A stretch of DNA of 64,000 nt from Anaerolineales bacterium (GTDB lineage Bacteria; Chloroflexota; Anaerolineae; Anaerolineales; UBA4823). How positions within the stretch are numbered: the stretch's first letter is position 1; each line of letters starts with the position of its first letter. The stretch is from positions 1 to 64,000 of the forward strand of contig JANXBJ010000010.1 of assembly GCA_025057645.1 (NCBI GenBank), read 5' to 3'. The position numbers and the translations under genes were made by a program. Below the pieces are notes generated by a model that was not told where the DNA came from, searched no databases, and saw only the letters and a program-made list of their open reading frames with translations. Positions 18,694 through 48,692 of the stretch are shown here, in pieces.

Positions 18694-19686
18694 TCATTGT
18701 CCAGAGTTCGAAGTAAAGCGTAGATATCGTTCTTCTAGGTCTTCACAGGGGATCTCCAAACCCTGGAGCAGGTTTCGCAAAGTGTTGCGGTGGACACGCT
18801 CCCAAGCACTGGGGCTGGAGTTGGCGTTGTGTGGAGCCAGCATTACCTGATCCATTTTGAGCAGAGGTGAGTCAAGAGGAAGAGGCTCGCTCTCGAAGAC
18901 GTCCAATGCTGCCCCAGCAATCTGCCCGGTTTGGAGGGCATGGATTAGCGCATGCTCGTCCACAACCGCACCGCGAGCTGTGTTAATCAGAATCGCTGTC
19001 GGTTTCATCAAGCGCAGGGTCTCAGCGTTGATCAGGTGGTAGCTGGTGGGATTGAGATCGCAATTCAAGCTCACAAAATCCGAGCGTTGCAACAGCTCTT
19101 CTAGGCTGGTCATTTCCACTCGGTACTCGGCGATGAAATCGGGAGCGATCTCAGCGATATCGTTGCCCAGAATGCGCATTCCAAAAGCATGCGCACGGCG
19201 GATCACAGCTTTGCCGATGTTCCCTACTCCAATAACCCCGAGCGTACACTCGCTCAGCGAGCGCCCAGGGAGCTTCTCCCACCTTCCGGCTTTCATTGCC
19301 CGGTCCAGCCACGGCTGGCGGCGGGCAAAGGCCAAGATATATCCCAGGACGGTGTCTGCTACCGGAAGGGTGAAAGCGTTGGGAGTGCGACACACTCGGA
19401 CTCCGAGCCGCTCTGCAGCCTTCTGATCTATGGAATCTACACCGGATCCCCACTTGGAGATGACCTTCAGGCGTGGCGCACAGGCCTCGAGCACTCGCGC
19501 TGTATAGCGGTCATCCCCGCAGATGGTGGCGTCGTAGTGACCGGCGAAGGAGAGCAATTGCTCCTCGGACAAGCGCTCTTGGACTTGAACAGGTAGCACT
19601 TTGAGTTGGTAACTTTCCAGCAGTGGTTGGAAGTGATGGAGGCGGGGCAACATGTAAGGGGCAGAAAAAAGCACCACCCGGCTCAT
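18694..19686 (-). CDS. D-2-hydroxyacid dehydrogenase (SerA-like)
   Basis: 330 residues, NAD-dependent. Rossmann motif GVIGVGNIGKAV; the arginine, glutamate and histidine catalytic set is seen in NTARGAVVDE, ALDVFESEPLP and LAPHNA. There is no ACT domain, so a housekeeping 3-phosphoglycerate dehydrogenase role is less likely than a role with the neighbouring cytidylyltransferase, nine bases upstream. A 160-base gap follows before the SDR. Confidence 0.82.
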   Translation of the reverse strand: MSRVVLFSAPYMLPRLHHFQPLLESYQLKVLPVQVQERLSEEQLLSFAGHYDATICGDDRYTARVLEACAPRLKVISKWGSGVDSIDQKAAERLGVRVCRTPNAFTLPVADTVLGYILAFARRQPWLDRAMKAGRWEKLPGRSLSECTLGVIGVGNIGKAVIRRAHAFGMRILGNDIAEIAPDFIAEYRVEMTSLEELLQRSDFVSLNCDLNPTSYHLINAETLRLMKPTAILINTARGAVVDEHALIHALQTGQIAGAALDVFESEPLPLDSPLLKMDQVMLAPHNANSSPSAWERVHRNTLRNLLQGLEIPCEDLEERYLRFTSNSGQ

Positions 19687-19695
19687 TGAAGCTCC

Positions 19696-20382
19696 TCAAC
19701 TCAGTTCGGGGTTATTTTTGCGGAGGAGAAAGTCGACAATTGCAAAGTCCAGCTCGTCATCGATATCCCAGGCTTCCGAGGGGTCGATTTCGAACATCAA
19801 AGGGCGCTCGCCGAGGCGGTTGCGACGTCGCACCAATGTCTCCGCGGAGAAGATATACAGGCACGAATTTTCCTCGTAAACCGGGGGGAGGTCTTGGGTT
19901 TGCAATAAAATGGCCGGATTGTGGTTAATAGCCCGTCCGAGCTGATCCCACAAGCGTGTGTGCAGCCGCGTGACCGAAAACAACGAGTCGTAAGCCGGAT
20001 AATTCTCTAGAAAGGTGTGGACTGCGCGGGAGATTGTCTCTGCCTTCAACAGCGGGTTCGTGCTATGGGTCTGGAGATAAAAATCTGCTTTCACTTGGGC
20101 GACGTCGTAGAGCAAAATCTCGTTCATTGGCACCCGATCCCCACATAATTCCTTAGGCCGCTCGATGAGATAGACAGCTGGGAAATGCCTCTTGACCTCT
20201 TGGAGGATCAGCGGGCTATCGGTATCAACCGCAATTTCGGCGATTTCCGGGCATCTTTGTAGGGTCTCAAGGATGTGGTAGAAGAGGGGCTTGCCAGCCA
20301 GCGGACGGTAGTTTTTCCCCGGCACTCGCTGGGAGTGATGTCGCATGGGCACGAGAGCGACAAATTTGGGCACAGGGTTCAC
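19696..20382 (-). CDS. Acylneuraminate-type cytidylyltransferase
   Basis: 228 residues of the NeuA/KdsB fold that activates a keto-acid sugar as its CMP derivative. The CTP-binding start is VALVPMRHHSQRVPGKNYRPL, a variant of the usual ARGGSKGIPRKN; the two-glycine loop is replaced by HHSQ, so it is a divergent subtype. DTDSPLI and EAWDIDDELDF match the family metal and end motifs. A GTG start overlaps the GT2 stop (GTGA). The next genes are 2-hydroxyacid dehydrogenase and SDR. Confidence 0.82.
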   Translation of the reverse strand: MNPVPKFVALVPMRHHSQRVPGKNYRPLAGKPLFYHILETLQRCPEIAEIAVDTDSPLILQEVKRHFPAVYLIERPKELCGDRVPMNEILLYDVAQVKADFYLQTHSTNPLLKAETISRAVHTFLENYPAYDSLFSVTRLHTRLWDQLGRAINHNPAILLQTQDLPPVYEENSCLYIFSAETLVRRRNRLGERPLMFEIDPSEAWDIDDELDFAIVDFLLRKNNPELS

Positions 20383-21362
20383 TTGAGCTTTTCCTCTTGA
20401 GCGTAGGTCTCATTATACCGAATCGGCGCAACGTTGCGCGTTAGCGAGGCAACCCTTGCCTCTTTTAGTCCCCTTGGGTAGTAGAACGTCCGACGCAGTT
20501 CCCAGGTCAAGTGGCCTGCCTGGCGATAACCGCAGTAAGTGCCCCAAAACTGCATAAAACGGAACCAGAGAATCTCGCGCCAGTGGAGACGCAGTTCCTT
20601 ACTCTGATGGGCGTGCCACAGGTCGTTGATCACGTTGCTTAAGGTCAAGCGCAGAAAATCGCGAAAGGTGAAGGTTTCTTGAGGAAAGATGCGCTTGAGT
20701 GCCATCGCTTCGCGGCGGTAGCGGTTATAAACGGCGCGTGGGGTCTCGTGGTGAATGTGAATGACCTCCGCCTCCGCTACGTATGCGATGCGATAGCCTT
20801 GTTCCAAAGCCCACTTTGCCCAGGCAAGGTCCTCTAATCCGCTTAGCGTCTCGTCGTAAGGATGCTGTTGCCACAACCTGCGGCGGATCGCTGCATTGGC
20901 ATTGTTGCAGAAAGGGTGAGCCTGGGAGAGGTTCGTTCGTTCCCCATACCATTGAAGGAAGATCTGCCTCTCCGAGAAACGGCTTTGCTCGTTGCCGCGT
21001 TGTTTCCCATAAGTGAGGGCTACCTTTTCATCCTCAAAGGGTGCCAGCAATCGCTCTAGCCAGTCCGGGTAAACGGGGTAGACATGGGCGCTAGCGATAA
21101 CGACCAAGTCTTGTGTGGCTCGGTGAAGGCCCAAATTGAGTGAACGGCCGAAAGTGAACTGCTGAGGCTCGATTCGCTCAATCTGCGCGCCGTACCCTCT
21201 GGCAATTTCAACCGTTCGATCCGTTGAGCCCGAATCGACCAAGATCACTTCAACCGCTTTTACGGTTTGGTGGGCAATTCCCTCGAGTAAGCGGCCAATA
21301 TGGTTTTCTTCGTTATATGCTCGGATAACGACAGAGCAGGAGCGCAAGCTACCGAGACCCAA
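20379..21362 (-). CDS. GT2 family glycosyltransferase (rhamnosyltransferase-like)
   Basis: 327 residues. SVVIRAYNEENHIGRLL, VDSGSTDRTVEIA and an SAHVYPV stretch are seen, and GLEDLAWAKWALEQGY is the typical acceptor-side ED motif. The C-terminal helical region (YNRYRREAMALKRIFP) resembles rhamnosyltransferases. The start appears to be TTG 21362, overlapping the end of the DUF3592 gene by 14 bases. It overlaps the cytidylyltransferase in a GTGA junction, so the two are co-expressed, and it could use that enzyme's CMP-sugar or an ordinary NDP-sugar. Confidence 0.8.
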   Translation of the reverse strand: MGLGSLRSCSVVIRAYNEENHIGRLLEGIAHQTVKAVEVILVDSGSTDRTVEIARGYGAQIERIEPQQFTFGRSLNLGLHRATQDLVVIASAHVYPVYPDWLERLLAPFEDEKVALTYGKQRGNEQSRFSERQIFLQWYGERTNLSQAHPFCNNANAAIRRRLWQQHPYDETLSGLEDLAWAKWALEQGYRIAYVAEAEVIHIHHETPRAVYNRYRREAMALKRIFPQETFTFRDFLRLTLSNVINDLWHAHQSKELRLHWREILWFRFMQFWGTYCGYRQAGHLTWELRRTFYYPRGLKEARVASLTRNVAPIRYNETYAQEEKLK

Positions 21363-25728: not shown

Positions 25729-26598
25729 TTACCAATTGTTATCTTTTTCGTAGCCTAATCGAATCAAGAGATCGCCCGCCACGTTCTTGAAGGCTATTTT
25801 GTTCGCTTCTGTAAAATATTCCCGCCAATTGCCGGGCTGAGCCTTGCGAAACGTGCCTGATCGTTTGGGGACGATAGCCTCTTCTAAAGCGCTTATTGCC
25901 TGCTCCCGAGCCACACGCAATTCAAACCCCCGTTCACCCAAATAATCCAAAATACGGTGTAGAGCTTGTCGGCGGTTTAAGATCAGATCTTCAAAACGTA
26001 GGCATAAAATTCCGGGTGTTTCCAGCCAGCCAAGATAATCCAAGTACTTTTGACGCACCCCTGACAGCCGCGCATCCGGTTCATCTACACCATATATGGC
26101 AGCGTTCAAGCGCTGCTCCATATCTCTCAAGCGTTGGGTATAGTATTCGTGCATCCCGTGTCCGCGATGTATCTGCGTAGCATAGAAAACGTGCGAAACC
26201 AACATATCGCGCGGATCCCGATAGACGAAAATCGTAGCATATTTGGGTTGCGTGAGCAGCGAGAGAAAGGGCTCGCGGGCTTGGATATAGCCATAGGCAA
26301 TATCCCCTGCCCGCAAACTTTGCAGGTTGCGCAGGGTTTCGGAGTCGTCTAACTTGCGGTTGTCCTCGGTGCGGTTGACGGGAGGAAAGCCGGGATTGAC
26401 GAAGGGCGCAATGCGCGTTAAACCCTGTAACACTTGAATGATCAGGTGCGAGCCCGACTTGGGCATGGCGTTGCCCAAGACGGCCGGCAGACTGGCTTGA
26501 TAGCTAAATCCCCAGCGCAAGCCGGCTCGCCAACGACGCGCTTGCCAGCGTAGATGCTTGAGCGGAACCTTGAGCGGCAAAGGAAGAGCAGACGGCAT
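25729..26598 (-). CDS. PAPS-dependent sulfotransferase
   Basis: 289 residues. NAMPKSGSHLIIQVL is the 5'-phosphosulfate loop, VYRDPRDMLVSHVFYA the 3'-phosphate region, and SGTFRKAQPGNWREYF the late PAPS contact. The product ends ...RLGYEKDNNW. It is paralogous to the gene at 21948, and both carry the same GCAATTT...TTTACCA sequence straddling the stop. The start follows the upstream ATPase gene by six bases. A glycan acceptor is likely. Confidence 0.85.
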   Translation of the reverse strand: MPSALPLPLKVPLKHLRWQARRWRAGLRWGFSYQASLPAVLGNAMPKSGSHLIIQVLQGLTRIAPFVNPGFPPVNRTEDNRKLDDSETLRNLQSLRAGDIAYGYIQAREPFLSLLTQPKYATIFVYRDPRDMLVSHVFYATQIHRGHGMHEYYTQRLRDMEQRLNAAIYGVDEPDARLSGVRQKYLDYLGWLETPGILCLRFEDLILNRRQALHRILDYLGERGFELRVAREQAISALEEAIVPKRSGTFRKAQPGNWREYFTEANKIAFKNVAGDLLIRLGYEKDNNW

Positions 26599-27887: not shown

Positions 27888-29195
27888 CTATCTCCATGGC
27901 GAAGTTGGGAACGGAGAACGAGAAAAGGAAACTAACCCCTTTTGATGAAAAAGCGAGACGACCTCCCAAACCGCTTGAAAAGAAATATCGAGCTCTTGGG
28001 CGATGTCTGAGACCGTATGTTCCCCATCGCAGCGTTCCATGATCTCAAACAAGCGCAAACTGCCTTCGGGGTTGGTGCGGTAGTCAATCCAAATGCCATA
28101 GCCGGAGAGAAAAATTTCGCCCTTGAAGTGATTGACGATATATTGATCTCTTTCCCAGGCTTGCAACAGTCCCAAGACCACCTCTCGCGAGGCTTCTAAT
28201 CGCTCCTGGGTGACAATTTCGGGTGTGTCGAAACTGGAATGATATTCGCGGTAGGGTTGGGGTGGATAGGAGGGCTTTTCCACGCGAGAAATGGAGAGCA
28301 TTGGCACGCGCACACCCGGCGCATTGAACTGGCGCTCGTCGTTGGGCACAATCTTGCGGTAAGGGCCAGTATAACCAGCCGGGTCTAGGCCTTTGAACGC
28401 GGCAGCCAGACAGCGATCGACTCGGCTCTGAGACTGCAAGGAAAACTGTAGAGCATGGGGGCTGTCATTGCCCAGCATTTCAAGGAATAGCCCGCCGACC
28501 ATTTTGGGAATCAGGTCTTCGTGGTGGCTCAGGTATGCTACCGAGCCGATCGTTTCCGGCACAATCAGAAACCGATAGGTATAGTAGGGCCGAGGTTGTA
28601 CGAGCAAGTGGCGCATCACATCTAACCCGACTACGACCCCGGTCAAGTCGTCGTTGACCATCGCCGGGTGACACAGGTGGGCGACAAGCACAAAGGTTTT
28701 CTCGCTCTCGCCTGGCACAACCACTTCGCCCACTTTCAGCATGCCGGGTTCAAAGGTGGTGCGGATGACCACGCGATATTTTTCATCCGTTAGCGACTCC
28801 TTCAACCTCTGCGAGCAACACAAGCCCCAATCGCGTTGATAGTACTTAAAGACAAACGGGATCGCTTCCGGCAGGGTTGGGTGGGTGTGCAAATGGGCAA
28901 ACAGCTCATCACGGCTGACCACCCCTTCAAAGGGCAACGAGTAGGAGACAACATGTAAGGGATGCTCGGCAGCATCAATCAAGCGTTTCCCGTCCAGCGT
29001 TTCCAAGTAGGCTTCGTGGCAGGTCCATTTTTCGGGGATGCGCCAGGTCCAACACGGCTCGCCGGTGGGATACTCGTGGACGGTCATCGGCACCTCTTGC
29101 GCTAAGCGATAGAGGGCTTGATCGAAACCGTCGGACACAATATCGCGGCGCAGAAACCAAAGTTCATGGATAAGGTCAATCATGGAAGTGAGCAT
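27888..29195 (-). CDS. DUF4910 aminopeptidase-like protein
   Basis: 435 residues of the DUF2172/DUF4910 plus winged-helix family, a zinc-aminopeptidase fold (M28-like) often found in polysaccharide clusters. Likely metal ligands: H173/H176 in HLCHP, D182/D183 in NDDLTG, E214 in VPETIGS, and the histidine in REYHSSFDTPE. The final 60 residues (SDIAQELDISFQAVWEVVSLFHQKG) are the winged helix. Function is unproven: it could trim amino acids from an aminoacylated sugar, which would fit the carrier-protein ligase genes upstream at 31794-34668. Alternatively it may be a peptidase or amidase for another substrate. Confidence 0.8.
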   Translation of the reverse strand: MLTSMIDLIHELWFLRRDIVSDGFDQALYRLAQEVPMTVHEYPTGEPCWTWRIPEKWTCHEAYLETLDGKRLIDAAEHPLHVVSYSLPFEGVVSRDELFAHLHTHPTLPEAIPFVFKYYQRDWGLCCSQRLKESLTDEKYRVVIRTTFEPGMLKVGEVVVPGESEKTFVLVAHLCHPAMVNDDLTGVVVGLDVMRHLLVQPRPYYTYRFLIVPETIGSVAYLSHHEDLIPKMVGGLFLEMLGNDSPHALQFSLQSQSRVDRCLAAAFKGLDPAGYTGPYRKIVPNDERQFNAPGVRVPMLSISRVEKPSYPPQPYREYHSSFDTPEIVTQERLEASREVVLGLLQAWERDQYIVNHFKGEIFLSGYGIWIDYRTNPEGSLRLFEIMERCDGEHTVSDIAQELDISFQAVWEVVSLFHQKGLVSFSRSPFPTSPWR

Positions 29196-30982: not shown

Positions 30983-31116
30983 GGTTCTGCTCTTCCTCTC
31001 GTCTCGACCCTTACAACCGTCCGACATAAGCAACCCATGGGCCATTCCCGCTTACTCAGGTGCAATTGTACCAAGTGGGAGATAGCCCGAGTACAACTTT
31101 ACAGAAATGTAAGGTT

Positions 31117-31793: not shown

Positions 31794-32588
31794 TCAGCTC
31801 TTAGAAGGTCGATTGATCACCAAACTCCACGGATCCTCTCGCAGAAACTCTTCCACTGCCTCGACAAAGTCCCGCATGCGGCACACGGAAATGAACCCAT
31901 AATTGACTGCTTGGCTGTGCCACTTCCCTCGTTCGGCAAGGCGCTGTTGCACGGGGTGCAAGTCAATCTTCGGATCTAGGTCGAGGTCACGCACATACAT
32001 CTGATAAGCCCGCTCTTCCCATTTATCGTCCATGCGCGCCGGGCCGCGAAATTCCTTCCAGTAACGGTAGGGAACCCCAATGCGCTGCTCAGCATAATGC
32101 AACAGTGAGATCGCCTGCACATCGGCGCCCAAGAGCAAAATCTTAAAGTCCAACTCCACCATGCGCTCGAAGGCCGAGCCAGGGTCAAAGGCGCCCAGGG
32201 TATGGCGGCTGGCAAGGTCGGCTGCGTAGCGCCCGAGGGCAGTCACTGATTGTAGGGGGTGGGGCGTACGCTGGGCTAAAGGGTGCCTGCGCACCAGCTC
32301 GGAGAAGACCCCCATTCCCACCGAGGGTGTGTTTTGGCGATCAAACGGCTCACCGCGCGCAAAGGCAAAATTGAAGGTCGGCACCACCAATGTTCCCGCC
32401 GAAGCGGTGGGAGAAGAGTCTTCTAGGCTGATGCCGAGGACCTCGGCCAAGACTCGCAAAATCATCTCCGCCCCGCCCTCGGGCTTGCCGAGGAAATGCA
32501 AGGCCGAATGAACCAGCACACCGTCGCCACGCTGGAGACTGAGGGAGAGCAGCGAGTCCTTTAGCTGTGCGTATATCAGAACCCGCAT
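31794..32588 (-). CDS. AAC(3)-family N-acyltransferase
   Basis: 264 residues of the aminoglycoside 3-N-acetyltransferase fold: DGVLVHSALHFLG at the start, TLVVPTFNFAFA, and SLLHYAEQRIGVPYRY with the family's catalytic His-Glu pair. Homologues in sugar clusters acylate amino sugars rather than drugs, and some take the acyl group from carrier proteins. The gene follows the GNAT gene by 111 bases, downstream of a carrier protein and its amino-acid ligase, so an aminoacyl transfer to a sugar is one attractive inference. Antibiotic resistance is unlikely. Confidence 0.78.
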   Translation of the reverse strand: MRVLIYAQLKDSLLSLSLQRGDGVLVHSALHFLGKPEGGAEMILRVLAEVLGISLEDSSPTASAGTLVVPTFNFAFARGEPFDRQNTPSVGMGVFSELVRRHPLAQRTPHPLQSVTALGRYAADLASRHTLGAFDPGSAFERMVELDFKILLLGADVQAISLLHYAEQRIGVPYRYWKEFRGPARMDDKWEERAYQMYVRDLDLDPKIDLHPVQQRLAERGKWHSQAVNYGFISVCRMRDFVEAVEEFLREDPWSLVINRPSKS

Positions 32589-32699
32589 TGTTCTTGGTTG
32601 AAATGTTCGCTCGAGAAGGAAAATGTTTCAGGTTGGTATCGGCTAGCGCCCTATGTTTTGAAATGCACCCTTGCTTACATGGCCAGGACTGAAAGCGAG

Positions 32700-33215
32700 C
32701 TATTCCTCAACATACTCCTCCCACAGCAAACGCCCAACGCGAAATTCGAGCTTGAAGCCCATGCGCTCGTAGAGTTTCCAACTGGCTTCGTTGTCGCGCA
32801 GCACTTGAATTTCAACCGAATGTACCCCTTGTTCGCGCAGCCAGTTCAAGGCTAACCGCGAGAGTTTATCGCCGATGCCCATGCGGCGCGCTTCGGGCTC
32901 GATCCACATGTCGCTTAGCTCACCGACGAGCACGCCTCCCATGTAGGCGGGCACGCGCTTAATGCGACAGAGCATAAACCCCACCACACGTCCATCGATC
33001 TCTGCGACATCCACGCGGCTAAAGCGGCCCAACGTACGGCGGAAAGAATCTAGCCACACCTCGCCAACGTTTTCCGGGTGGGGCAAACGATAGCCTACCT
33101 GGTAAAAAAACTGGTTGAGCTTTGTATAGAATTCCTTCAGAACCGGGAAATCGGCCTCGGTTGCCAGACGGTAGTGAACAACCGGCTGGGTGGTTTCACT
33201 TGGCGCTTCGCTCAT
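32700..33215 (-). CDS. GNAT-family acyltransferase
   Basis: 171 residues with the full GNAT core: the beta4 strand VGELSDMWIEPEARRMGIGDKL carries the R-x-x-G-x-G acyl-CoA loop, and EIQVLRDNEASWKLYERMGF the late helix-strand. ATG 33215 overlaps the upstream ligase stop as ATGA, with GGAGGTG just before it. The coupling to an amino acid:carrier-protein ligase suggests it either acetylates the loaded amino acid or moves it from the carrier to an acceptor. The usual donor of this family is acetyl-CoA. Confidence 0.88.
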   Translation of the reverse strand: MSEAPSETTQPVVHYRLATEADFPVLKEFYTKLNQFFYQVGYRLPHPENVGEVWLDSFRRTLGRFSRVDVAEIDGRVVGFMLCRIKRVPAYMGGVLVGELSDMWIEPEARRMGIGDKLSRLALNWLREQGVHSVEIQVLRDNEASWKLYERMGFKLEFRVGRLLWEEYVEE

Positions 33216-34405
33216 CCGAACACCTCCTGCATTGAGGACGGCCAATGGATTGAATCAAAGCCGAATTGAGCTAGAAAGGCAAAAGCAATGCGCTCCAAGC
33301 CGAAGGCAACGCAGCCCGTATGGGCAGGTGAGCCATCAGGCAAGCGGATGTTCAGGTGACGCCCGAAGAAATCTTGGTGATAGTTATAGGAGCCGACCGC
33401 CAGTGTTCCATCCTTAAAGGGCAAGCGGGCGCGGATCTCGTACTTCAATTGAAAGGCGCTCTGGAATGCAGCTTGTTTGCGGAATTCGCCGATGAAAAAC
33501 GGATCGTTGGCACTCTCGACGCGGTAAGCAAAGCCGATTTCTCCAAAAACACGTTGCATCCGCTGACGAGCAAGCTCGCGGTTTGCCAGCACGAATTCCT
33601 TGTCACCGACAAAGATCACCTCACGCATGGTGAAGTTCCACAACCGTTCCAAGGAATGCAAGTTCAACGACTCGTAGCGAAAGCAATTTCCAACCGCAGT
33701 AGCGACCACTCCTTGCGGGGGAAGGGTTTGGTCGGCCAAGGTGAAATACAAGTGATAGCACACGGCTGGCGAAAGCAAAGTCCGGACGGGGGCGAAGCTC
33801 TCTAAGGGCACCTTCAGATGGCCGTGCTCATCGCAGGATGCTCCTTCGGCAAAGGCATCGATCTGGTCTAAATCAGTGCGTAAGTGCGTGGCAAAAGAAA
33901 GGGAATGGGGGAAAGCCCGGAAGTATCCCACCCGTTCCAAAAAACGCGCCGGGATCAGTGTGGGGAAGCGATAAGGGCGAGCCGAAAAGGAGTCGGCTAG
34001 CTGGAGAAAGCGGTTCTCAAACCACTCAATCAGCCGAGTGAACAGCGGACCTAGAGCATAGATCCCCTCTGCCTCTTGGAAGAGCTCGCCGCGGCGCAGT
34101 AGCTCGGGCATCGGGTCGGCGGCAAATGGAGTCGGGCGATCAAGGTAATCCTCCAGCACCTGCACCTTCGGACGGATAGCGCCCTTTGCCATCGAAAGCA
34201 CCACCCGTTGTACCTTCTCTTCGATTGCAGCTCGTTCGGCGGCGGGGATGGCGTATTTGAGTTCCAGCGTAATTTGATCGCCGGAGGGCGAAATGTGGGC
34301 CTTTGCAATGCGTTCATCCACGTAGGCGAGCTTAGAATGCACTTCGCCGATCAGGTGGTCGGGGATGGTTACTGCTGCGGCAAATTGGAGGCTTGAGGAG
34401 GTCAT
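33212..34405 (-). CDS. Amino acid:[carrier protein] ligase, SerRS-like
   Basis: 397 residues with a class II aminoacyl-tRNA synthetase core but no tRNA-binding arm. Motif 2 is FRYE (R243, E245), motif 3 GCVAFGLERIA (R372). C216, E262 and C365 are placed like the zinc ligands of the atypical methanogen-type SerRS and of the known amino acid:carrier-protein ligases; the E-to-C distance of 103 residues matches those. Such enzymes adenylate a small amino acid (Gly or Ala in studied cases) and load it on a phosphopantetheine arm. The ATG overlaps the carrier-protein stop (ATGA) and its own stop overlaps the GNAT start. The N-terminal 110 residues are extra and unassigned. The amino acid used is unknown. 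Confidence 0.85.
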   Translation of the reverse strand: MTSSSLQFAAAVTIPDHLIGEVHSKLAYVDERIAKAHISPSGDQITLELKYAIPAAERAAIEEKVQRVVLSMAKGAIRPKVQVLEDYLDRPTPFAADPMPELLRRGELFQEAEGIYALGPLFTRLIEWFENRFLQLADSFSARPYRFPTLIPARFLERVGYFRAFPHSLSFATHLRTDLDQIDAFAEGASCDEHGHLKVPLESFAPVRTLLSPAVCYHLYFTLADQTLPPQGVVATAVGNCFRYESLNLHSLERLWNFTMREVIFVGDKEFVLANRELARQRMQRVFGEIGFAYRVESANDPFFIGEFRKQAAFQSAFQLKYEIRARLPFKDGTLAVGSYNYHQDFFGRHLNIRLPDGSPAHTGCVAFGLERIAFAFLAQFGFDSIHWPSSMQEVFG

Positions 34406-34668
34406 GAGGGCGCTGCGAGGTGATTACTTTCGAGGTATTGGCGGATCGCTGCAACGCTGGTCAGCGCAGCGATGGTCTCGGCGTTAATCTCGATGCCGAA
34501 AGATTCTTCGAGGCGCATCATCACCTCCATGTGACCCATAGAGTCCCACTGGGGGAGGTCACCGAAAGCCAAATCGTCAGAAATCCCCTCAATCGGCACT
34601 TGCAGCGCCAACGATAACGCCTCACGGATTCGATTGGTCAAGGGGTTCGAAGAAACGTTCTCGCTCAT
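34402..34668 (-). CDS. Acyl/aminoacyl carrier protein
   Basis: 88 residues. The phosphopantetheine serine is S43 in LPQWDSMGHMEVMMRLEE, a standard carrier-protein helix-2 start. Acidic overall with a four-helix pattern. ATG 34668 has GGAG six bases upstream; the longer frame to 34743 would run into the gene before. It is translationally coupled to the SerRS-like ligase, which strongly suggests it is that enzyme's substrate. It is not accompanied by fatty-acid or polyketide synthase genes, so a housekeeping ACP role is unlikely. Confidence 0.9.
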   Translation of the reverse strand: MSENVSSNPLTNRIREALSLALQVPIEGISDDLAFGDLPQWDSMGHMEVMMRLEESFGIEINAETIAALTSVAAIRQYLESNHLAAPS

Positions 34669-34687
34669 AGAAACTCCGGTAGGTGGA

Positions 34688-35296
34688 TTAGGGTATGGAT
34701 AACCTCTGTGTTTCAGAGATGCTCTTAGAATAGGTTTTCCCATGATGGAGGTAAGTTACATCCAGCTTTTTCGGCTCTCCGGGGAAGGGATCAACTCCAA
34801 ATTCTTCGTTGGTGGCAACCACATCCAGTTTTCCATCCCTTACTTTCGCCCTGAGCAGAGGGGTGACATCCATCCAATTGTCCCTAGCGCCGTATTTTGC
34901 CGAAAGGATAACCGGCTCGTCTTCGAGGGTCGAAGAACGGCTTGGGGTCTCGAAGAATTTTGCTTCGCTTTTGTCCAATTGCGTGATTGGAGCCAGTTTG
35001 GTCATGAAGTCGGGGTTGAACACAATCTTCCAGATGCTGATGACCAATCCTAGTGCATCCACGAATAAGGCAGCTCCAGCAGCAGTAACCACACTGCTCG
35101 AGTAGGCTTGGTGATTGAATAAGATTAAGGAGGAAATAACGATGATACTCGCAAGAAGGACAACCGAGGAATAGCCCATGATAAGCCGCAACTGAAACCA
35201 GCGATTTTCATGCGCCTTGTGCTGATCAAACGTCTCGCGCTCTTGGCGCAGACGCTCTTTGATGCGCTCGATTTCGGGTTCAAAGGTTTTGTCCAT
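34688..35296 (-). CDS. Two-helix membrane protein with DUF3395-like C-terminal domain
   Basis: 202 residues. A charged helix (EIERIKERLRQERETFDQH) leads into two membrane helices (about 35-95). The C-terminal 90 residues (ILSAKYGARDNWMDVTPLLR, VDPFPGEPKKLDVTYLHHG) resemble the small beta domain DUF3395 seen at the end of some DnaJ-type proteins. ATG 35296 follows AGAGAAGAG. Nineteen bases separate it from the carrier-protein gene, so it heads the ligase operon and may be a membrane docking or scaffold subunit. That role is inference. Confidence 0.6.
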   Translation of the reverse strand: MDKTFEPEIERIKERLRQERETFDQHKAHENRWFQLRLIMGYSSVVLLASIIVISSLILFNHQAYSSSVVTAAGAALFVDALGLVISIWKIVFNPDFMTKLAPITQLDKSEAKFFETPSRSSTLEDEPVILSAKYGARDNWMDVTPLLRAKVRDGKLDVVATNEEFGVDPFPGEPKKLDVTYLHHGKTYSKSISETQRLSIP

Positions 35297-35701: not shown

Positions 35702-36730
35702 TTATCCGTGTGCTTTCACTTTCAACACCCCCACACTCTGATATTGTGGATCCCACTTGCCCCACGGCATCCCGTTATCCCCAGAGCGGAAGTAAAAACT
35801 GGCGAGGTTATCGCGCAGTTCGGCACACTCCCGCAGGGCTTGCATCAGCTCGGCGTAGCGGTCGTAGTTAGAAGGGGCATCGGGGGAAAGGTTGAAGGCG
35901 CAGCGCAAGGTGGCTTCGCTGTAACACCACCCCTTCGAGGGTTCATGGAACCAGTCTCGATCGGGCGAGGCGCCAAGCGTAGCGAGGAGGACACCGCCGG
36001 GTTTGAGGACGCGCATCAGTTCTCGGATAACCAACGGCAAGCGGTCAGGAGGGTTGTGTTCCAGCGCTGAGAGGGCAGCAACGGCATCGATAGAATTGTC
36101 GGCAATGTCGGAAAGATGACTGAGGTCTTGATTGTAGAGGATAATTTCTCCATCATTCCTCCCCTCGCCCCATGGGAGAGGGGTCGGGGGTGAGGGCCTC
36201 CCCTCGCCCCATGGGAGAGGGGTCGGGGGTGAGGGCCTCCCCTCGCCCCGTGGGATAGGGGTCGGGGGTGAGGGCCTCCCCTCGCCCTGTGGGAGAGGCT
36301 TTGGAGATAAGGGGCGGTAAAGACCGCTCACCACCTGCTTCATCGCCCGCAAGCGCTCTTTCAACGAACCGCCCTTGCGCCCGGCGTTCAGCAGAGCGGT
36401 TAGGGCTGGATTCAAGTCCGTTGGGCGCAGTCCTTTCACCCTTGTCCAGCGCCGAAAGCGCCAAGGCAAATCGGCGCGGCTGGTGCGGTCAACGCTGATG
36501 ACCGTTGCCCCATGCGCTGCTAGATACCATTGTAAAACCCCCGTCCCGGCGCCGGCATCCAGGATCGTTTTCCCCTTGACATCCCCTAAGTGGGAGAGAA
36601 TCCACGCCAAATCCAGCAAGTAATGCCAGCCAAATTCGAGTTGGAGGTGCCGGGCAACGGCTTTCAGCTCTTCAACCAGCGGACGGTGACGATCGAGGAG
36701 TTCGACCGAGAGGATCTCAATCTTCTCCAT
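35702..36730 (-). CDS. SAM-dependent methyltransferase with in-frame repeat insertion
   Basis: About 342 residues. Motif I is ILDAGAGTGVLQWYL with acidic VISVDR after it; NSIDAVAALSALEHN and LVIRELMRVLKPGGVLLATLG follow. Between motif I and motif IV the coding sequence contains four copies of a 13-residue unit (GEGRPSPPTPLPW) from a 39-bp DNA repeat inserted in frame, so the protein carries a proline-rich loop of about 50 residues. Activity may survive because the insert is in a surface loop. ATG 36730 overlaps the glycosyltransferase gene upstream. The methyl acceptor is probably a sugar or lipid of the glycan pathway. Confidence 0.75.
   Translation of the reverse strand: MEKIEILSVELLDRHRPLVEELKAVARHLQLEFGWHYLLDLAWILSHLGDVKGKTILDAGAGTGVLQWYLAAHGATVISVDRTSRADLPWRFRRWTRVKGLRPTDLNPALTALLNAGRKGGSLKERLRAMKQVVSGLYRPLSPKPLPQGEGRPSPPTPIPRGEGRPSPPTPLPWGEGRPSPPTPLPWGEGRNDGEIILYNQDLSHLSDIADNSIDAVAALSALEHNPPDRLPLVIRELMRVLKPGGVLLATLGASPDRDWFHEPSKGWCYSEATLRCAFNLSPDAPSNYDRYAELMQALRECAELRDNLASFYFRSGDNGMPWGKWDPQYQSVGVLKVKAHG
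36158..36300. repeat. 39-bp tandem repeat, about 3.6 copies, inside a gene
   Basis: Units at 36158-36196, 36197-36235 and 36236-36274, with a partial one from 36275. The core is CCCCTCGCCCCATGGGAGAG followed by GGGTCGGGGGTGAGGG; copies differ by a few bases (CATGGG, CGTGGG, CTGTGGG). Its CTCGCCCC/GGGGTGAG ends are partly self-complementary. It resembles a dispersed repeat found between and within genes of many Chloroflexota and proteobacteria. The 39-base length keeps the frame. Confidence 0.9.
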
Positions 36731-38369
36731 AGGCAATCCATTCTACCTCTTCGGGCAGCAGAAAATCGCCCCCTTCCTGAAAGCCGCGCAGGATGGTCTG
36801 GATAGTAGGAGAGCGTTCGGGTAGCAGCTCCTCCCAACCGAAATCGCGCAATTGGACAAAACCTGCTCGTTGCGCAGGCTCGAGGTATCTGCCAAAAGGT
36901 AGAGAAGCGCGGTAAAGTTGGTAGTACAAAAACCGCCGCGCATTACGCCGAAATTCGGGTGGAAACTCGATCTTTTCGACAGTTAGCATCGCCTCTGCCA
37001 ACTGTTCAAACTCATCAATCGATTGGGCAAAGAACACGGTTGGATATTGGGTGTAGCGGGCTTTCCCGGCACAGAGCACTGGGACAGAGAGCAAGGTTGC
37101 CTCCAAGCCGATCGAGGAGTTATACACCATCAGAAACTTGGAGCGTTGGATCAGCTCATAGGAGCTAAGGTATTCCTGTGAGTCGACAAAGATCACATTC
37201 GACAGCTTGTTCACTGCATTAGCTTCGATCCAACTACGCACGCTCTCGCGGGCTTGTTTTGCGGTGCCGGGGCGCATCTCATCGGGATGAGCACGGATGA
37301 CAAACAGCGTCTCCGGATGAACACGAATGATCTTCAACACATGATCTAGCCAGTGAAACATGTGCCGAAAAGCTACGTTGGCATGAACCTGACTGGTATC
37401 ATAAACCACGTTGGTAAAAACCGGGACAATCTGACGAAATTGAGCAGCTTTTTGTAGAAAGGATTCATCTAACCCTTGCATTTCCGGCCAAAAACGAATG
37501 CCGGCCATGGTGAACTTGCCCTGAAAGCGCCGTTCCAAGTAGGCATCCAGACGCTGATTTTGCCGTTCGTTCAGCTCAAACGAGGCAGGGATGGGAATCG
37601 GATATGCAGTAGCTTCGCCATCGGTAAAAAAGGCGGAGAGGGGTTGAAAGCCCACTTCCTGTGTCACAACTCGAACGCCTTTTTGCAAGGCGACCCAGCG
37701 GGCGGTTGCTTCGGGATAGAGAATGCCATTGAAGATCAAGCAGGCAAAGGGCTGTTCTCTGTCCAGCAGGGTCTCGAAATGGAGAGCAACGTTGTAAGCT
37801 GAAAGAAGATATTGGCGAAGGAGGTAGCGCGTAGGCTCGTTATCCGGCAAGTGATGGCAGCGCAGTGCCCAGCGAATCGAGGGCAACACCAACTTTCCCA
37901 ACGGGATCGGCTCTTCATACCGGGGAGATGAAAGTTGAAACTCACTCAGCTCCTCAACGCTCAACTCACCGAGCTTGCGCAATAAATCGGAGTCGGGTCG
38001 GAAGCGAAACCAATGCGTCGCAAAAGTTTGTGTGAGCCGCTTGGTTTGAGCAATACAGGGCTCACAGGGAGGGGGCAGACGATGATTCTGACGATTGGTG
38101 CCTAACACACAATGGGACATCCCTGCCTGACAGGCAAATTGGATGATGCGGTAACCTGCCAACCTTAGCCCAAGGCTGGCCAGGAGGGTGAAAGCTGCGT
38201 TTTGGCTTATGCCTGCCAAGCGGGAGGAGGCGTTGAAGACCACGATTTTCGGCGAGTCCTCTGTTCTGGGAGCATGCGCTCGCACCTGATAAGCTAAGCG
38301 CCTAAGCCGCTGGCGGTTTTGCCAGCCTGCCCAACGCAGTTGGAGTTGCCTCCAAAAAGGTTGTTTCAT
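36717..38369 (-). CDS. GT-B type capsule/polysaccharide transferase-like protein
   Basis: 550 residues with a GT-B-like C-terminal half: FVIRAHPDEMRPGT and SKFLMVYNSSIGLEATLLSVPVL match the donor-binding segments of capsular polysaccharide and polysialyltransferase-type proteins. The N-terminal half includes a cysteine-rich patch (CQAGMSHCVLG, PPPCEPCIAQTK) that could bind a metal, as in some wall-glycan glycosyltransferases. It is upstream of the methyltransferase gene, with a short overlap. The sugar it transfers cannot be deduced. Confidence 0.65.
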   Translation of the reverse strand: MKQPFWRQLQLRWAGWQNRQRLRRLAYQVRAHAPRTEDSPKIVVFNASSRLAGISQNAAFTLLASLGLRLAGYRIIQFACQAGMSHCVLGTNRQNHRLPPPCEPCIAQTKRLTQTFATHWFRFRPDSDLLRKLGELSVEELSEFQLSSPRYEEPIPLGKLVLPSIRWALRCHHLPDNEPTRYLLRQYLLSAYNVALHFETLLDREQPFACLIFNGILYPEATARWVALQKGVRVVTQEVGFQPLSAFFTDGEATAYPIPIPASFELNERQNQRLDAYLERRFQGKFTMAGIRFWPEMQGLDESFLQKAAQFRQIVPVFTNVVYDTSQVHANVAFRHMFHWLDHVLKIIRVHPETLFVIRAHPDEMRPGTAKQARESVRSWIEANAVNKLSNVIFVDSQEYLSSYELIQRSKFLMVYNSSIGLEATLLSVPVLCAGKARYTQYPTVFFAQSIDEFEQLAEAMLTVEKIEFPPEFRRNARRFLYYQLYRASLPFGRYLEPAQRAGFVQLRDFGWEELLPERSPTIQTILRGFQEGGDFLLPEEVEWIAYGED

Positions 38370-39348: not shown

Positions 39349-39446
39349 TCGAGGCGATTAACCTACTTTGGAGAGATGCTGCTAGCACGCATAGGCAGGA
39401 ATGCCTACGCTCCGAAAAAGCTGACGATGAGAGCGGATCACGAGGG

Positions 39447-40604: not shown

Positions 40605-40622
40605 CCCTTTGAGGTAGGCAGT

Positions 40623-41423: not shown

Positions 41424-41425
41424 GG

Positions 41426-43017: not shown

Positions 43018-43243
43018 CGTTTGTCGTTAACCTCGTGCTTTGATTTCACCCGTGTAGAGAAGACCGCATATATGGGGAAGCGATCAATCTCTCTCCAGCT
43101 CATTCAGAAAGAGCACCAGCCACTGAGGAATCTAAGAGTTCTTCCTTCGGTCGAAGTGACATGCTTGCAGCAGCAATGAGAAGTACGTCAACCTCGGCAA
43201 CCTTCGGATCGCAGACGTCCCTGCCGAGAACTCTCGGAGTCAT

Positions 43244-43298
43244 AGGCCTTCCCAGTGGATGGGAAGGCGGACGTTCTTGTCCGCCTTCCGAAAGGCCT
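43244..43298. promoter_or_regulatory. Competing-hairpin element inside the ABC importer operon
   Basis: Three segments share pairing. CCTTCCCA (43247-43254) pairs with TGGGAAGG (43260-43267). That second segment is also the start of GGAAGGCGGAC (43262-43272), which pairs perfectly over 11 bases with GTCCGCCTTCC (43279-43289). An outer stem AGGCCTT/AAGGCCT (43244-43250, 43292-43298) encloses both. Mutually exclusive stems of this kind are typical of attenuators, but no T-run follows on the minus strand. It could also be a palindromic repeat element. The rest of 43018-43427 has no supported gene. Confidence 0.5.
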
Positions 43299-44878: not shown

Positions 44879-46777
44879 TCAGCTTGCTGGTTCAGTCTGC
44901 CGCGCTTTGAAATAAGCCTCCGAGAGCCGCTGAATAGCAATTAGAAAGCCCTCGCCTTGGCGTTGGTGACCGCGCCAAATTTCAGGGATCATGGTGCCCT
45001 GGTAGTCGCCTAACACTTGGAAAAAATGCACCCAGTCAATCGTACCCTCGCCGATTTGCAACCCTTCCCCATCCAACCCGGAGGCATCCGAGAGGTGCAG
45101 ATGGCGAATATAGGGTAAGAGAACGCGCACCTGTTCAAAGAAATCGACATGCGCCCAGTTGCAATAAAGCTTTGAATGGGAAGTATCGAAGCAGATTTTT
45201 AGCCCCAGTGGCTCGATAAAGTCGCGAATCTCATAGGCGTCCATGAAGGCGTTGGTCAACCATTGACCACCGAAGTACCACGGGCGCGGGGGAAGGTTTT
45301 CCAGCAAGAGCTCTACCCCTTCGGCGTCAATTTCTTCCAGCGAGCGACGCAGATTATCATAGAGCATCTTTTTGTCGCGGATAGGGTAATCGAGGCTCAT
45401 TGCCCCCGGATGCACTACTACCTTGGGCGTGCCCACAAAATGTGGTGCCATTTCCCGAGTCAGGTTAATGGTCTTTTGGACCAATTCCACCGAGCCCTTG
45501 CGCTGCCACTCATCGCGCGAGCACAAATCCACCAAGGTACGTTCCCAAAACTCTGGCGCGTGCACCACCAGTTTGAGGTTGTAATCTCCGCCCGGGTAGT
45601 GCTCCTCTAAATCTTGGTCGGTGAAGTGGTATTCCAACATGCGCGGGCTATACTGTAAGAGTTCGTGCGAATCGCGGAAACGCACGGTGAAGCCATAGTC
45701 CATGGGCAAGGTGTGGGTAGTATCCAGTTCAATCTTGATCCCAAGATCGCGCTCCAAGAACGGTTCGTCCTCTTCGATCACTCGTTCTGCCACTCGGCCT
45801 AGCAACTGCTCGTAATGCTGGGGCGATAAGCCCAGCGCCGGCCCCTTGACGGCGATCTTGTCGCGAGTGATCACTTCGCCGATCTCAATGCGCTTGGCAG
45901 CCACCAAGCTCTTGCCCAAAACTTCGCGGTTGAGGATCTCACCGCGAGAGAAGAATTTTTCCTCGCCGGTGCCAAGGGCAAGGGTTACTTGACGGATGTC
46001 ACGCACCATCTTCTTAAACCCCTGAGGCTCAAGGCTAGCGGCGTGGTCAGGGCCTTCCATGGTGCGGTCGAGGGTGAGGTGGCGCTCGATGATCGCAGCG
46101 CCTAGCGCTGCGGCGACAGTTGAGACCGCAATGCCGCGTTCGTGTCCGGAGTAACCCACCGGTACCCCAAAGCGCCGCAGTTTTTCCATAAAGCGCAGGT
46201 TGATATCCTCAAAAGCTGCTGGGTAGGTGCTGTTGCAGTGCAGCAGGGCAAATTCAACATTGCGTTGCTTGAGGAAATTGACCGTAAACTCCACCTCCTC
46301 CATGCGTGACATGCCGGTGGAGAGGATCAAAGGCTTGCCCTTCGAAGCGAGGTGATCCAAGAGGGGCAAATTGGTCAGATCGGCAGAGGCCACTTTATAA
46401 GCCGGCACACCAAGGGTTTCGAGGAAGTCAGCGCTTTCGGGGTCAAAGGCGGAGCAGAGAAACGTAATATTGCGCTTCTGGCAGTGTTCAACAATGGTGT
46501 AGAAATCGTGCTCTGGCAATTCCACTTGCTGGAGGATGGGCAATAGATAACGCAGCGTTTTCTCTCCGGCGTTAGCGTTTTCAAGGTACTTCTTGGCATA
46601 AAGTTTCTCCAGCTTGCGCTTTTGGAACTTGACCGCATCGGCGCCGGCATCGGCGGCGATGTCGATCAACTTTAATGCCAAGGCTAGGATGCCGTTATGG
46701 TTGACTCCGATCTCGGCGATAATATAGGTGGGCTGGCCGTCTCCGACCAAACGGTCACCGATCTTAATCACAGGCAT
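44879..46777 (-). CDS. NeuB-type nonulosonate synthase fused to a TIM-barrel isomerase
   Basis: 632 residues in three parts. Residues 1-285 are a NeuB synthase (AEIGVNHNG, AVKFQKRK, STGMSRMEEV, YSGHERGIAVS) that condenses PEP with a hexosamine to make a nine-carbon keto acid. Residues 290-350 are the SAF lid (KSLVAAKRIEIGEVITRDKI). Residues 370-625 are a xylose-isomerase-like TIM barrel (LVVHAPEF, LLLENLPPRPWY, LKICFDTSHSKLY, HLHLSDASG). Normal NeuB is about 340 residues. The fusion may couple substrate epimerisation or isomerisation to condensation. A CMP-sugar synthetase lies upstream. Confidence 0.88.
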   Translation of the reverse strand: MPVIKIGDRLVGDGQPTYIIAEIGVNHNGILALALKLIDIAADAGADAVKFQKRKLEKLYAKKYLENANAGEKTLRYLLPILQQVELPEHDFYTIVEHCQKRNITFLCSAFDPESADFLETLGVPAYKVASADLTNLPLLDHLASKGKPLILSTGMSRMEEVEFTVNFLKQRNVEFALLHCNSTYPAAFEDINLRFMEKLRRFGVPVGYSGHERGIAVSTVAAALGAAIIERHLTLDRTMEGPDHAASLEPQGFKKMVRDIRQVTLALGTGEEKFFSRGEILNREVLGKSLVAAKRIEIGEVITRDKIAVKGPALGLSPQHYEQLLGRVAERVIEEDEPFLERDLGIKIELDTTHTLPMDYGFTVRFRDSHELLQYSPRMLEYHFTDQDLEEHYPGGDYNLKLVVHAPEFWERTLVDLCSRDEWQRKGSVELVQKTINLTREMAPHFVGTPKVVVHPGAMSLDYPIRDKKMLYDNLRRSLEEIDAEGVELLLENLPPRPWYFGGQWLTNAFMDAYEIRDFIEPLGLKICFDTSHSKLYCNWAHVDFFEQVRVLLPYIRHLHLSDASGLDGEGLQIGEGTIDWVHFFQVLGDYQGTMIPEIWRGHQRQGEGFLIAIQRLSEAYFKARQTEPAS

Positions 46778-47085: not shown

Positions 47086-47856
47086 TCACCAATTCAGATG
47101 GAGGTAGTGATCGGGTTCAAAGCCTAAATCGTCCCAAGTGAGTTCACCGCTCTCCAGTAGGCGTTCGGCGCGCTTCCAATCCTCTTCAGAGTCGATGTCG
47201 ATCCACTCGGAGGAGGGCAAGACTAGCGGTAAGATACGTTCGCCGGTCATGGAATGCTTTTGCAGGATTGTATCGCTCCAAGCCGCATCGACATAGCCGG
47301 TCTGCCAATACACTCTGGGGAGCATCTGGCGGGGCAGGTTGTATGCTTCGGGCACCCCGATTTCCAGTAGAGGCTTCAGGAAGCCATCGGAGTCAATTTT
47401 CCACATCTTGTAGGGGTTCTGGAACGGTTCAATCACCGCGCGCACCGAGTCTGCTTCGGGCTGAAGCAGGAGTTTGTGCACTGCTTGGTCGATGTATTGC
47501 ACTCGGCGCAGCGGCGAGGTAGGACGCAACTGCACCACAATCTGAGGGGAATATTGTTCGTTTTCTGCCAACCATTGCAGCGCGTGAAGGAAAACGGGCA
47601 AGTCCGGAGTGTCGTCTTGGGCAAGCTCAACTGGGCGCAGGAAAGGCACCTCGGCGCCGTACTGACGGGCAGTGGCTGCAATTTCCTCATCGTCCGTTGA
47701 AACGACCACACGCGTCACCGTCTCGGCTGCAAGGGCAGCGGCGATGCTGTATGCGATCAGCGGGTGGCCGAAGAAAGGACGGATGTTTTTGCGCGGAATG
47801 CTCTTCGAACCGCCGCGCGCAGGGATCAGAGCCAGGACTTCTGTACGCGGTTCCAT
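47086..47856 (-). CDS. CMP-nonulosonate cytidylyltransferase (PtmB/NeuA-like)
   Basis: 256 residues. ALIPARGGSKSIPRKN is the canonical CTP loop, QLRPTSPLRR and EWIDIDSEEDWKRAE are the family sugar and end motifs. It activates a nonulosonic acid such as sialic, legionaminic or pseudaminic acid with CTP. ATG 47856 has AGAGAAAGCGAAG before it; a TTG at 47883 would overlap the SDR. The SDR gene just upstream resembles PtmA, and the PtmA-PtmB pair is known in legionaminate clusters of Campylobacter. Confidence 0.88.
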   Translation of the reverse strand: MEPRTEVLALIPARGGSKSIPRKNIRPFFGHPLIAYSIAAALAAETVTRVVVSTDDEEIAATARQYGAEVPFLRPVELAQDDTPDLPVFLHALQWLAENEQYSPQIVVQLRPTSPLRRVQYIDQAVHKLLLQPEADSVRAVIEPFQNPYKMWKIDSDGFLKPLLEIGVPEAYNLPRQMLPRVYWQTGYVDAAWSDTILQKHSMTGERILPLVLPSSEWIDIDSEEDWKRAERLLESGELTWDDLGFEPDHYLHLNW

Positions 47857-47867
47857 CTTCGCTTTCT

Positions 47868-48692
47868 CTACCAGGCGGTCCAACCGCCGTCTACGATCAA
47901 ATTTGCCCCGGTCACGTAGGCAGAGGCGTCCGAAGCTAAGAAGAGCAAAGCCCCGTTCAACTCATCGAGGTTTGCCATACGCCCAAGCATTGTGCGCGCA
48001 GAGTATGCGCGCACGAATTCTTCATCGTGTTGATTATATACGCCGCCCGGGGTCAGGGCGTTGACGCGGATGTTTCGGGCACCGTAGTAGGCGGCAAGAT
48101 ATGCGGTCAAACCTAACACACCCGCCTTAGTAACGGTGTAGTAAGCGGGTTTGTACTGGGGGGGATGACCCGGCCGTTGGTAGATGCGCTGATCGGGTGC
48201 ATTCAATCCATAGATTGAGGCAATGTTGATAATCACCCCCTTTCCTTGGCGAAGCATGGGCGGAATTGCTGCTTGGCAGCAGAGGAATACACCGGTCAGG
48301 TTGACCGCCAAGGCCCGATTCCAGAGTTCAAGGGGATAGTCTTCGAAATCAGTCGAGTGAGCGCTGTGCTGAGGATCGAATTTGGGGTCTAGGGCGGCGC
48401 TGTTAACTAGGATGTCTACTGCGCCGAACGCCTCTAAGGTTTGGGCGATCATCTGGCGAACTGAGATGGGAGAAGTCACATCTACTTGCAGCGGCAAAGC
48501 CTGCTGCCCCTGACGACTTAAGCTTTCCGCCGTCGCCGCGGCTGCCTCTTCATTCAGGTCGGCGACGACCACTTTAGCGCCGGCTTCGGCAAGTGTGCGG
48601 CAGAACTCTCTGCCCAACAATCCCGCACCGCCAGTCACAATGGCGACCCGGTCGGTGATCTTAAAGCTCTCTAAAACGGAAGACCGAGACAT
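47868..48692 (-). CDS. SDR oxidoreductase, PtmA-like
   Basis: 274 residues. Nucleotide motif VTGGAGLLGREF, acidic ADLNEE after strand 2, NSAALDPKF, and IASIYGLNAPDQ with AYYTVTKAG giving the Ser-Tyr-Lys set. The overall pattern, with the TGGAGLLG start and the long insert before the active-site tyrosine, resembles PtmA-type proteins next to cytidylyltransferases. The reaction is unproven. The adjacent CMP-sugar gene supports a role in nonulosonate precursor supply. Confidence 0.83.
   Translation of the reverse strand: MSRSSVLESFKITDRVAIVTGGAGLLGREFCRTLAEAGAKVVVADLNEEAAAATAESLSRQGQQALPLQVDVTSPISVRQMIAQTLEAFGAVDILVNSAALDPKFDPQHSAHSTDFEDYPLELWNRALAVNLTGVFLCCQAAIPPMLRQGKGVIINIASIYGLNAPDQRIYQRPGHPPQYKPAYYTVTKAGVLGLTAYLAAYYGARNIRVNALTPGGVYNQHDEEFVRAYSARTMLGRMANLDELNGALLFLASDASAYVTGANLIVDGGWTAW

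Follow-up and report, generated by a model that had tools for sequence, protein, structure and literature searches.

Seryl-tRNA synthetase (SerRS)-like enzymes that load carrier proteins are typified by Bll0957 of Bradyrhizobium, a glycine:[carrier protein] ligase, and the purpose of such enzymes is a standing question. In Dlt D-alanylation (DltA-DltC-DltB-DltD), a dedicated ligase loads an amino acid onto a carrier for a surface polymer, and in the mycothiol pathway an enzyme resembling aminoacyl-tRNA synthetases (aaRS), MshC, and the GNAT MshD attach an N-capped amino acid to an amino sugar. A carrier protein is already known from a nonulosonic acid (NulO) operon with DUF4910, that of CA_C2195, which combines NeuB, a nucleotidyltransferase, DUF4910, an aminosugar N-acetyltransferase and an acyl carrier protein (ACP); that report describes a one-zinc DUF4910 site and proposes that a peptide or glutamine is, perhaps, transacylated to an amino sugar (Das et al., 2014; PMC4000134). 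The locus treated here lies in a stretch of 64,000 nucleotides from an Anaerolineales bacterium (GCA_025057645.1, contig JANXBJ010000010.1, positions 1-64,000), referred to as the window, and encodes, all on the minus strand, a carrier protein (CP), a SerRS-like ligase (LIG), a GNAT acyltransferase, an AAC(3)-fold acyltransferase and a DUF4910 protein. On balance, this cassette is read as a putative carrier-protein-dependent amino-acylation module inside a NulO surface-glycan operon, so that one subfamily of the SerRS-like loaders would be fixed among surface-sugar genes. What the genomes give is gene content, order, motifs, conservation and kinship, from which every chemical step is inferred.

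A pattern search of a genome collection recovered 43 loci, all in Chloroflexota except one from the Magnetococcales (L045); the peptide patterns came from the window ligase, so the search finds close relatives and understates the taxonomic spread, and the loci belong mostly to one order, so the tallies are not counts of independent events. Neighbour tallies take in loci with enough flanking sequence, with the window excluded and n varying by gene; contig ends truncate L042, L044 and L045, and L033 seems to have a broken reading near LIG. CP adjoins LIG, upstream of it, in 38 of 39 testable cassette-type loci, and AAC(3) follows in 38 of 39 testable loci, missing solely in L045. Because the gene order recurs in relatives whose ligase is down to 57% identical, it is more than chance, and its recurrence across the 43 loci refutes the possibility, raised in the preliminary description of this DNA, that the five-gene order is unique to this genome. 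The cassette is nonetheless rare, given the few ligase matches in broader samples: 3 of 396 genomes of the class, one of them of a polyketide type, and 12 of 400 of the phylum, where only G000 and G164 gave strong full-length matches. As far as the sequences go, it belongs to a NulO operon of Anaerolineales.

LIG (33212..34405, minus strand) is a predicted SerRS-like amino acid:carrier-protein ligase of 397 residues, an assignment that draws on its match to Bll0957, a structure model and trees. It consists of a ferredoxin-like N-terminal domain (residues 1-88) and a class II core (89-397) with the zinc ligands C216, E262 and C365, exactly the residues that had been named before, which are invariant in all 41 cassette-group rows. 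The closest solved relative is Bll0957 (E 1.8e-41), followed by type-2 SerRS, and identity to Bll0957-type ligases is about 28-33% across the core. Since it reaches 180 bits against the carrier-ligase equivalog NF005479, below the cut-off of 357, LIG is by score a separate subfamily and no member of that equivalog; it is also below the cut-offs for type-2 (archaeal) SerRS (NF002120, 120.6 against 611 bits; TIGR00415, 70.6 against 489.55 bits). The structure model (pLDDT 80.9) matches type-2 SerRS with Z scores of 26.6-27.7, among them the enzymes of M. barkeri (27.7) and M. kandleri (27.1), and the Bll0957 entries in VIA with 25.0-25.4 over 261-266 residues (root-mean-square deviation 3.0-3.3). 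The proposed assignment as a SerRS-like carrier-protein ligase is supported, with Bll0957 as nearest solved structure, the zinc ligands conserved throughout and a carrier adjoining in two distant groups. LIG as the translation SerRS of the host was considered and rejected, as a single canonical SerRS, separate from LIG, scores above cut-off in the assembly, which is 95.75% complete.

The earlier wording that LIG lacks the tRNA arm proved incomplete, for the enzyme carries an extra alpha/beta domain, residues 1-88, which neither Bll0957 nor any other short ligase in the comparison has. Predicted alone, this domain takes a ferredoxin-like fold; Foldseek found no match for it below 0.001 (best 0.01), and its VIA matches are tied near Z 8. 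Some of them are C-terminal domains of phenylalanyl-tRNA synthetase (PheRS) chains (6oz5_D, Z 8.1), which are anticodon-binding, and this likeness would suit an alternative in which LIG charges tRNA via the N-terminal domain, the acyltransferases are tRNA-dependent and CP serves a different enzyme. Many unrelated proteins, however, match the fold at equal Z, the linkage to CP is found in two distant groups and an ordinary SerRS is present, which makes tRNA charging very improbable. The domain is common to the cassette ligases, to ligases of polyketide clusters and to those of Magnetococcales kin. In the trees, the cassette ligases are separate from two groups, that of Bll0957 (100/99) and that of the polyketide clusters (100/99), and lie with the Magnetococcales ones at the weaker support of 82/98; the SerRS and short-ligase rows drew long-branch warnings, and the split between the cassette and Magnetococcales clades is not proven.

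CP (34402..34668, minus strand; 88 residues) has its phosphopantetheine site at S43 in DSMGHM, exactly as previously given, and matches Pfam PP-binding with 33.7 bits (cut-off 20.8). The motif DS[MLV][GA]HM is kept in 38 of 39 aligned rows, the window row counted, and the remaining row (YALGSL) is probably no CP. The stop of CP and the start of LIG overlap as ATGA at 34402-34405, and so do the stop of LIG and the start of GNAT at 33212-33215, so that both reported overlaps are real; GNAT and AAC(3) are separated by a gap of 111 bp. The assembly has one AcpS-type phosphopantetheinyl transferase (PPTase) match and two PP-binding matches, one of them CP and the other on a different contig, and CP looks like a dedicated carrier. 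A piece of a nonribosomal peptide or polyketide synthase was also considered for CP, and this was rejected because the assembly, with its own SerRS and one AcpS, has only those two PP-binding matches in all. In the proposed mechanism, LIG would adenylate a small amino acid, Gly, Ala or Ser, and load it onto the phosphopantetheine arm of CP. Such loading is very probable; it is supported by the pairing of the two genes in two arrangements, with CP upstream in the cassette type and mostly downstream in the Magnetococcales kin. Gly or Ala, suggested before as the loaded amino acid, is not established, and relatives in polyketide clusters hint at Ser for their own group.

The LIG gene is flanked by NeuB-family and cytidylyltransferase genes, which bears out its placement in a glycan island. 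NeuB precedes LIG in 28 of 34 loci, 1.9-3.1 kb upstream, and is 10.5 kb away in the window; a Capsule_synth-type glycosyltransferase (CAPS; 36717..38369, minus strand; PF05159, 33.5 bits, cut-off 20) is upstream of LIG in 30 of 35 loci. What matters for NeuB is its location near LIG: all 32 genomes searched have NeuB-family matches, as do 9 of 14 controls, so that presence alone tells little, and this census counts one genome twice (G164/G402) and includes the polyketide-type G329, which has weak matches only. It is because of this fixed place of LIG in NulO operons that acylation of a surface sugar is the likeliest use. The aminoacyl thioester would be the donor for acylating NulO, or else a sugar next to it, with an amino group as the likeliest site, and the amino acid probably ends on the surface glycan.

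The acyltransferases differ in how constant they are. AAC(3) (31794..32588, minus strand; PF02522, 130.8 bits) is the likeliest user of aminoacyl-CP, since it is the sole acyltransferase nearly always present and its fold uses pantetheine thioesters; that it moves the aminoacyl group is given about an even chance. GNAT (32700..33215, minus strand; PF00583, 68.5 bits) is accessory, with zero, one or two copies in relatives: it adjoins LIG in 36 of 42 loci, is absent in 6, among them L045, and is doubled in L027, L029 and L043. Its best NCBIfam match in the window is MshD, with 37.7 bits far under the cut-off of 163.1. An obligatory transferase role for GNAT was rejected on account of the six loci; of the two candidates named in the preliminary description, GNAT or AAC(3), it is thus the second that is retained as likeliest. 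Where present, GNAT may cap the alpha-amine of the amino acid, a role that is possible though doubtful. DUF4910/DUF2172 (27888..29195, minus strand; PF16254, 214.9 bits), a metallopeptidase-like protein, is found in 34 of 37 testable loci, after AAC(3) in most relatives, and is missing from L045, from L015, where no copy lies within 5.9 kb, and from L004, whose contig stops 2.8 kb further down. As in CA_C2195, it is without the M28 catalytic pair and keeps the one-zinc triad: H176/D182/H319, together with P213, is conserved in 34 of 34 cassette rows, and the S191 position has A in 28, S in 3, H in 2 and G in 1 (the rows aligned as LIG-less include L097, which carries LIG). It would act on an amide, by acyl removal or transacylation.

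Several observations weigh against this reading. AAC(3) and DUF4910 lie near NeuB without CP or LIG in four LIG-less genomes of the same taxonomic order (L080, L082, L083 and L096), in a different NulO cluster that, pieced together from the four loci, has NeuB, RmlD-like and glycosyltransferase genes; the pair can therefore work with another donor, and aminoacyl-CP is not a necessary substrate of AAC(3). Within the class, DUF4910 far outnumbers LIG (101 of 396 genomes above cut-off, many matches partial, against 3 of 396), and in L012, L018 and L023 it has been exchanged, being 31-32% identical to the others, while LIG is still about 69%. Distances correlate with those of LIG for CAPS (r 0.83), NeuB (0.79), CP (0.77) and AAC(3) (0.72) but hardly for DUF4910 (0.21), with genes below 75% profile coverage and L033 and L045 dropped (n 19-39); as the values are as high for CAPS and NeuB, they are explained by shared operon descent and do not single out AAC(3). 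The Magnetococcales-kin LIG loci show no AAC(3), DUF4910 or NeuB in the 3.7-18 kb read; NulO genes elsewhere in these genomes were not sought. Apart from PseB, no Pse-pathway gene turned up: queries for PseC, PseG, PseH and DegT-type proteins gave no match in the window, the 30 kb read beyond it or the cassette loci. The pocket residues do not fix the amino acid, S339 and N341 being shared by LIG with M. kandleri SerRS and Bll0957 alike. Finally, glycine or N-acetylglutamine can be ester-linked on Pse (PMC5207245), so that a hydroxyl acceptor is possible.

The amino-sugar acceptor of the preliminary description is unproven: two DegT queries were empty in the cassette loci, and of the 8 DegT-family matches in the genome none is on the contig of the window, the 3 strong aminotransferases all lying on other contigs. 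The LIG-less pairs, the exchanged DUF4910 and the bare LIG-CP loci of the Magnetococcales kin could mean that two unlinked modules are present, AAC(3) and DUF4910 using acetyl- or other acyl-CoA on NulO and aminoacyl-CP feeding GNAT, a glycosyltransferase or an unseen enzyme. This is judged unlikely, though to be taken seriously: AAC(3) comes after LIG/GNAT in 38 of 39 loci, the LIG-linked copies form their own group, with 36 linked and 5 unlinked sequences on opposite sides of a 100/100 branch, and GNAT cannot alone account for the use of aminoacyl-CP, as 6 of 42 loci lack it. A further and rather unlikely elaboration of the amino-acylation module is a cytoplasmic cycle of acyl exchange, in which DUF4910 as a one-zinc amidase would strip an N-acyl group from NulO, AAC(3) would re-acylate the amine so exposed from aminoacyl-CP and GNAT would cap the alpha-amine; in genomes lacking CP and LIG, AAC(3) and DUF4910 would introduce a different acyl group. 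If true, it would account for the repeated pairing of these two genes with NeuB where no aminotransferase is close by, and it would be the first biological role for SerRS-like carrier ligases.

Relatives of LIG bear on what happens to the loaded amino acid. In Streptomyces (L077, L078) and a Chloroflexota genome (L095), polyketide clusters contain N-domain ligases, which adjoin a ketosynthase, a 3-hydroxyacyl-CoA dehydrogenase and an acyl-CoA dehydrogenase; these genes we take to be the zwittermicin-type set that converts seryl-ACP to aminomalonyl-ACP; because the neighbours are aminomalonyl-type genes, Ser is suggested as the substrate of this group. By analogy, the amino acid on CP might first be oxidised, methylated or decarboxylated, and the derived acyl group attached instead. 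Rhizobium, Priestia and a genome of the Chloroflexota also have ligase relatives next to an acyl-CoA dehydrogenase gene, and the operon itself includes a hydroxyacid dehydrogenase and, in 19 of 38 loci, a methyltransferase. No such dehydrogenase pair is evident, however, among the recurrent genes of the cassette loci, where not all clusters are identified, and the hydroxyacid dehydrogenase adjoins the second cytidylyltransferase, far from CP. Conversion before transfer is thus improbable, and direct transfer of the amino acid is preferred.

In the class of the L045 genome, full-length N-domain ligases are present in 14 of 48 genomes, and a WDS-motif CP lies within 2.5 kb of LIG in 11 of 15 loci of this kind, downstream on the same strand in 10. 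L136 and L045 encode, besides LIG and CP, a ketoacyl-synthase-III-like protein (23.4 bits in L045, slightly below the cut-off of 24) and an MBOAT protein, and L134/L135 add a polysaccharide deacetylase-like and a GNAT gene. These loci (L134-L147, L045) possibly represent a Dlt-like system with an aaRS-type loader. On a Tsukamurella plasmid (L102, 3011-5843), a short carrier ligase, an ACP and a PPTase are encoded amid exopolysaccharide and glycosyltransferase genes, an independent hint that short carrier ligases can serve polysaccharides. A small plasmid of Apilactobacillus kunkeei (L150, 3751-6399) has a 249-bp open reading frame (ORF), a distant ligase relative (19.5% identity) and a gene annotated as D-alanine--D-alanine ligase in succession, perhaps another carrier-ligase pair.

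The operon around the cassette usually begins with a short-chain dehydrogenase/reductase (SDR), a CMP-NulO (cytidine monophosphate-NulO) synthetase, NeuB (often in a long TIM-barrel form), CAPS and, in part of the loci, a methyltransferase, followed by CP and LIG, and continues with GNAT where present, AAC(3), DUF4910, sulfotransferases in some loci, a family 2 glycosyltransferase (GT2), a second cytidylyltransferase, a hydroxyacid dehydrogenase and an SDR. In the window, all coding on the minus strand, these correspond to an SDR oxidoreductase in the conserved order (47868..48692; PF13561, 183.6 bits), a CMP-NulO synthetase-like protein (47086..47883; TIGR03584 PseF, 174.8 bits, cut-off 205.7; 26 of 30 loci) and the NulO synthase of the operon, in which NeuB is joined to SAF and a xylose-isomerase-like TIM barrel (44879..46777; PF03102, 294 bits). 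The window NeuB scores 367.9 bits against TIGR03569 (cut-off 399.65); the NeuB proteins are below the Neu and Pse equivalog cut-offs. Next to CAPS lies the accessory S-adenosylmethionine (SAM) methyltransferase (35702..36736; PF08241, 46.2 bits), whose ORF reads through a 39-bp repeat at 36158-36298 (3.6 copies, 96% match). Further down are a sulfotransferase-like protein (25729..26598; PF00685, 38.5 bits), with relatives after DUF4910 in 20 of 30 loci, GT2 (20379..21362; PF00535, 85.7 bits; 21 of 28 loci), the second cytidylyltransferase (19696..20382; PF02348, 95.6 bits; 19 of 27 loci) and, in the downstream part, a 2-hydroxyacid dehydrogenase (18694..19686; PF02826, 208.1 bits) with relatives in 11 loci.

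The window thus has the same genes in a more spread-out form. ORFs at 38.6-44.4 kb part NeuB from CAPS; by eye, 38626-44390 seems to encode a nitrilase-type hydrolase, a LuxR-type regulator and an ATP-binding cassette (ABC) transporter with a substrate-binding protein, and it is an apparent insertion into the operon. Two ORFs part AAC(3) from DUF4910, and the region 29459-31045 between these genes encodes a 528-residue protein with no Pfam match, shared by L006 alone among the loci compared. A second NulO cluster (PseB, RmlD, NeuB, glycosyltransferases, cytidylyltransferase) occupies 54-64 kb and continues in L098, where an ABC transporter pair with a Wzt C-terminal domain follows; by eye it is the counterpart of the cluster of the LIG-less relatives, but without AAC(3) and DUF4910, and its PseB, at the window end from 63.3 kb, scores 506.9 bits (cut-off 407.75). 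The membrane protein upstream of CP (34688..35296, minus strand) lies outside the conserved unit and was rejected as the head of the operon, a place given to it earlier, as its relatives occur in just 4 of 43 loci, 39 of which contain upstream sequence. The promoter of its own that had been proposed did not fare better: it consists of two sigma-70-like matches, each 9/12, and promoter-like sites in the entire scanned region are near shuffle level (5 against 2.7 +/- 1.6).

Among the described systems, Dlt is alike in having a ligase and a carrier for a surface polymer, and two Magnetococcales-kin loci add an MBOAT protein, of the DltB kind; the cassette differs in ligase fold and glycan type, and no AMP-binding DltA, MBOAT DltB or DltD was found among the 20 window ORFs scanned with Pfam. 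The cassette likewise resembles MshC/MshD in pairing an aaRS-like enzyme with a GNAT, whereas MshC is of class I and is not known to use a carrier protein. MhC has been tabulated as a paralogue of cysteinyl-tRNA synthetase (PMC9437257). With the Bll0957-type ligases (PDB 3mey, 3mf1, 4h2s; NF005479), LIG shares the class II SerRS-like core, the C/E/C zinc ligands and the adjoining carrier, but it differs from Bll0957 in its N-terminal domain and tree position, and its context is a NulO operon rather than the ACP-acyl-CoA dehydrogenase-ligase-DUF1839 arrangement seen in Rhizobium.

Amino-acylated sugars of the expected kind are known products, such as D-alanyl-legionaminic acid in E. coli O161 (PMC10609480), Leg5Ac7AcAla in V. 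vulnificus (PMC7371886), Leg5GluNMe7Ac in C. botulinum flagellin (PMC5207245) and N-acetylglycyl and N-acetylalanyl amino sugars (PMC3210612). The accessible parts of these sources do not describe how the amino acid is loaded, and those of two others (PMC13317340, PMC11339370) add nothing further on the loader; no report tying aaRS-like CP ligases to NulO sugars was found in the open-access PMC literature. If true, the proposed module would suggest a route to these products. As candidate transferase, carrier and sugar-activating genes are adjacent, the question could be tested directly with few purified proteins. The nearest precedent is the CA_C2195 operon, in which DUF4910, an N-acetyltransferase, an ACP and NeuB are co-located as in the cassette; the table of that report contains an ATP-grasp amino acyl ligase but none of the SerRS-like kind (Das et al., 2014; PMC4000134), whereas the carrier of the cassette comes with a loader of the aaRS type. 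What is new compared with that operon is this carrier loader with its extra N-terminal domain and the recurrent CP-LIG-AAC(3) unit to which it belongs.

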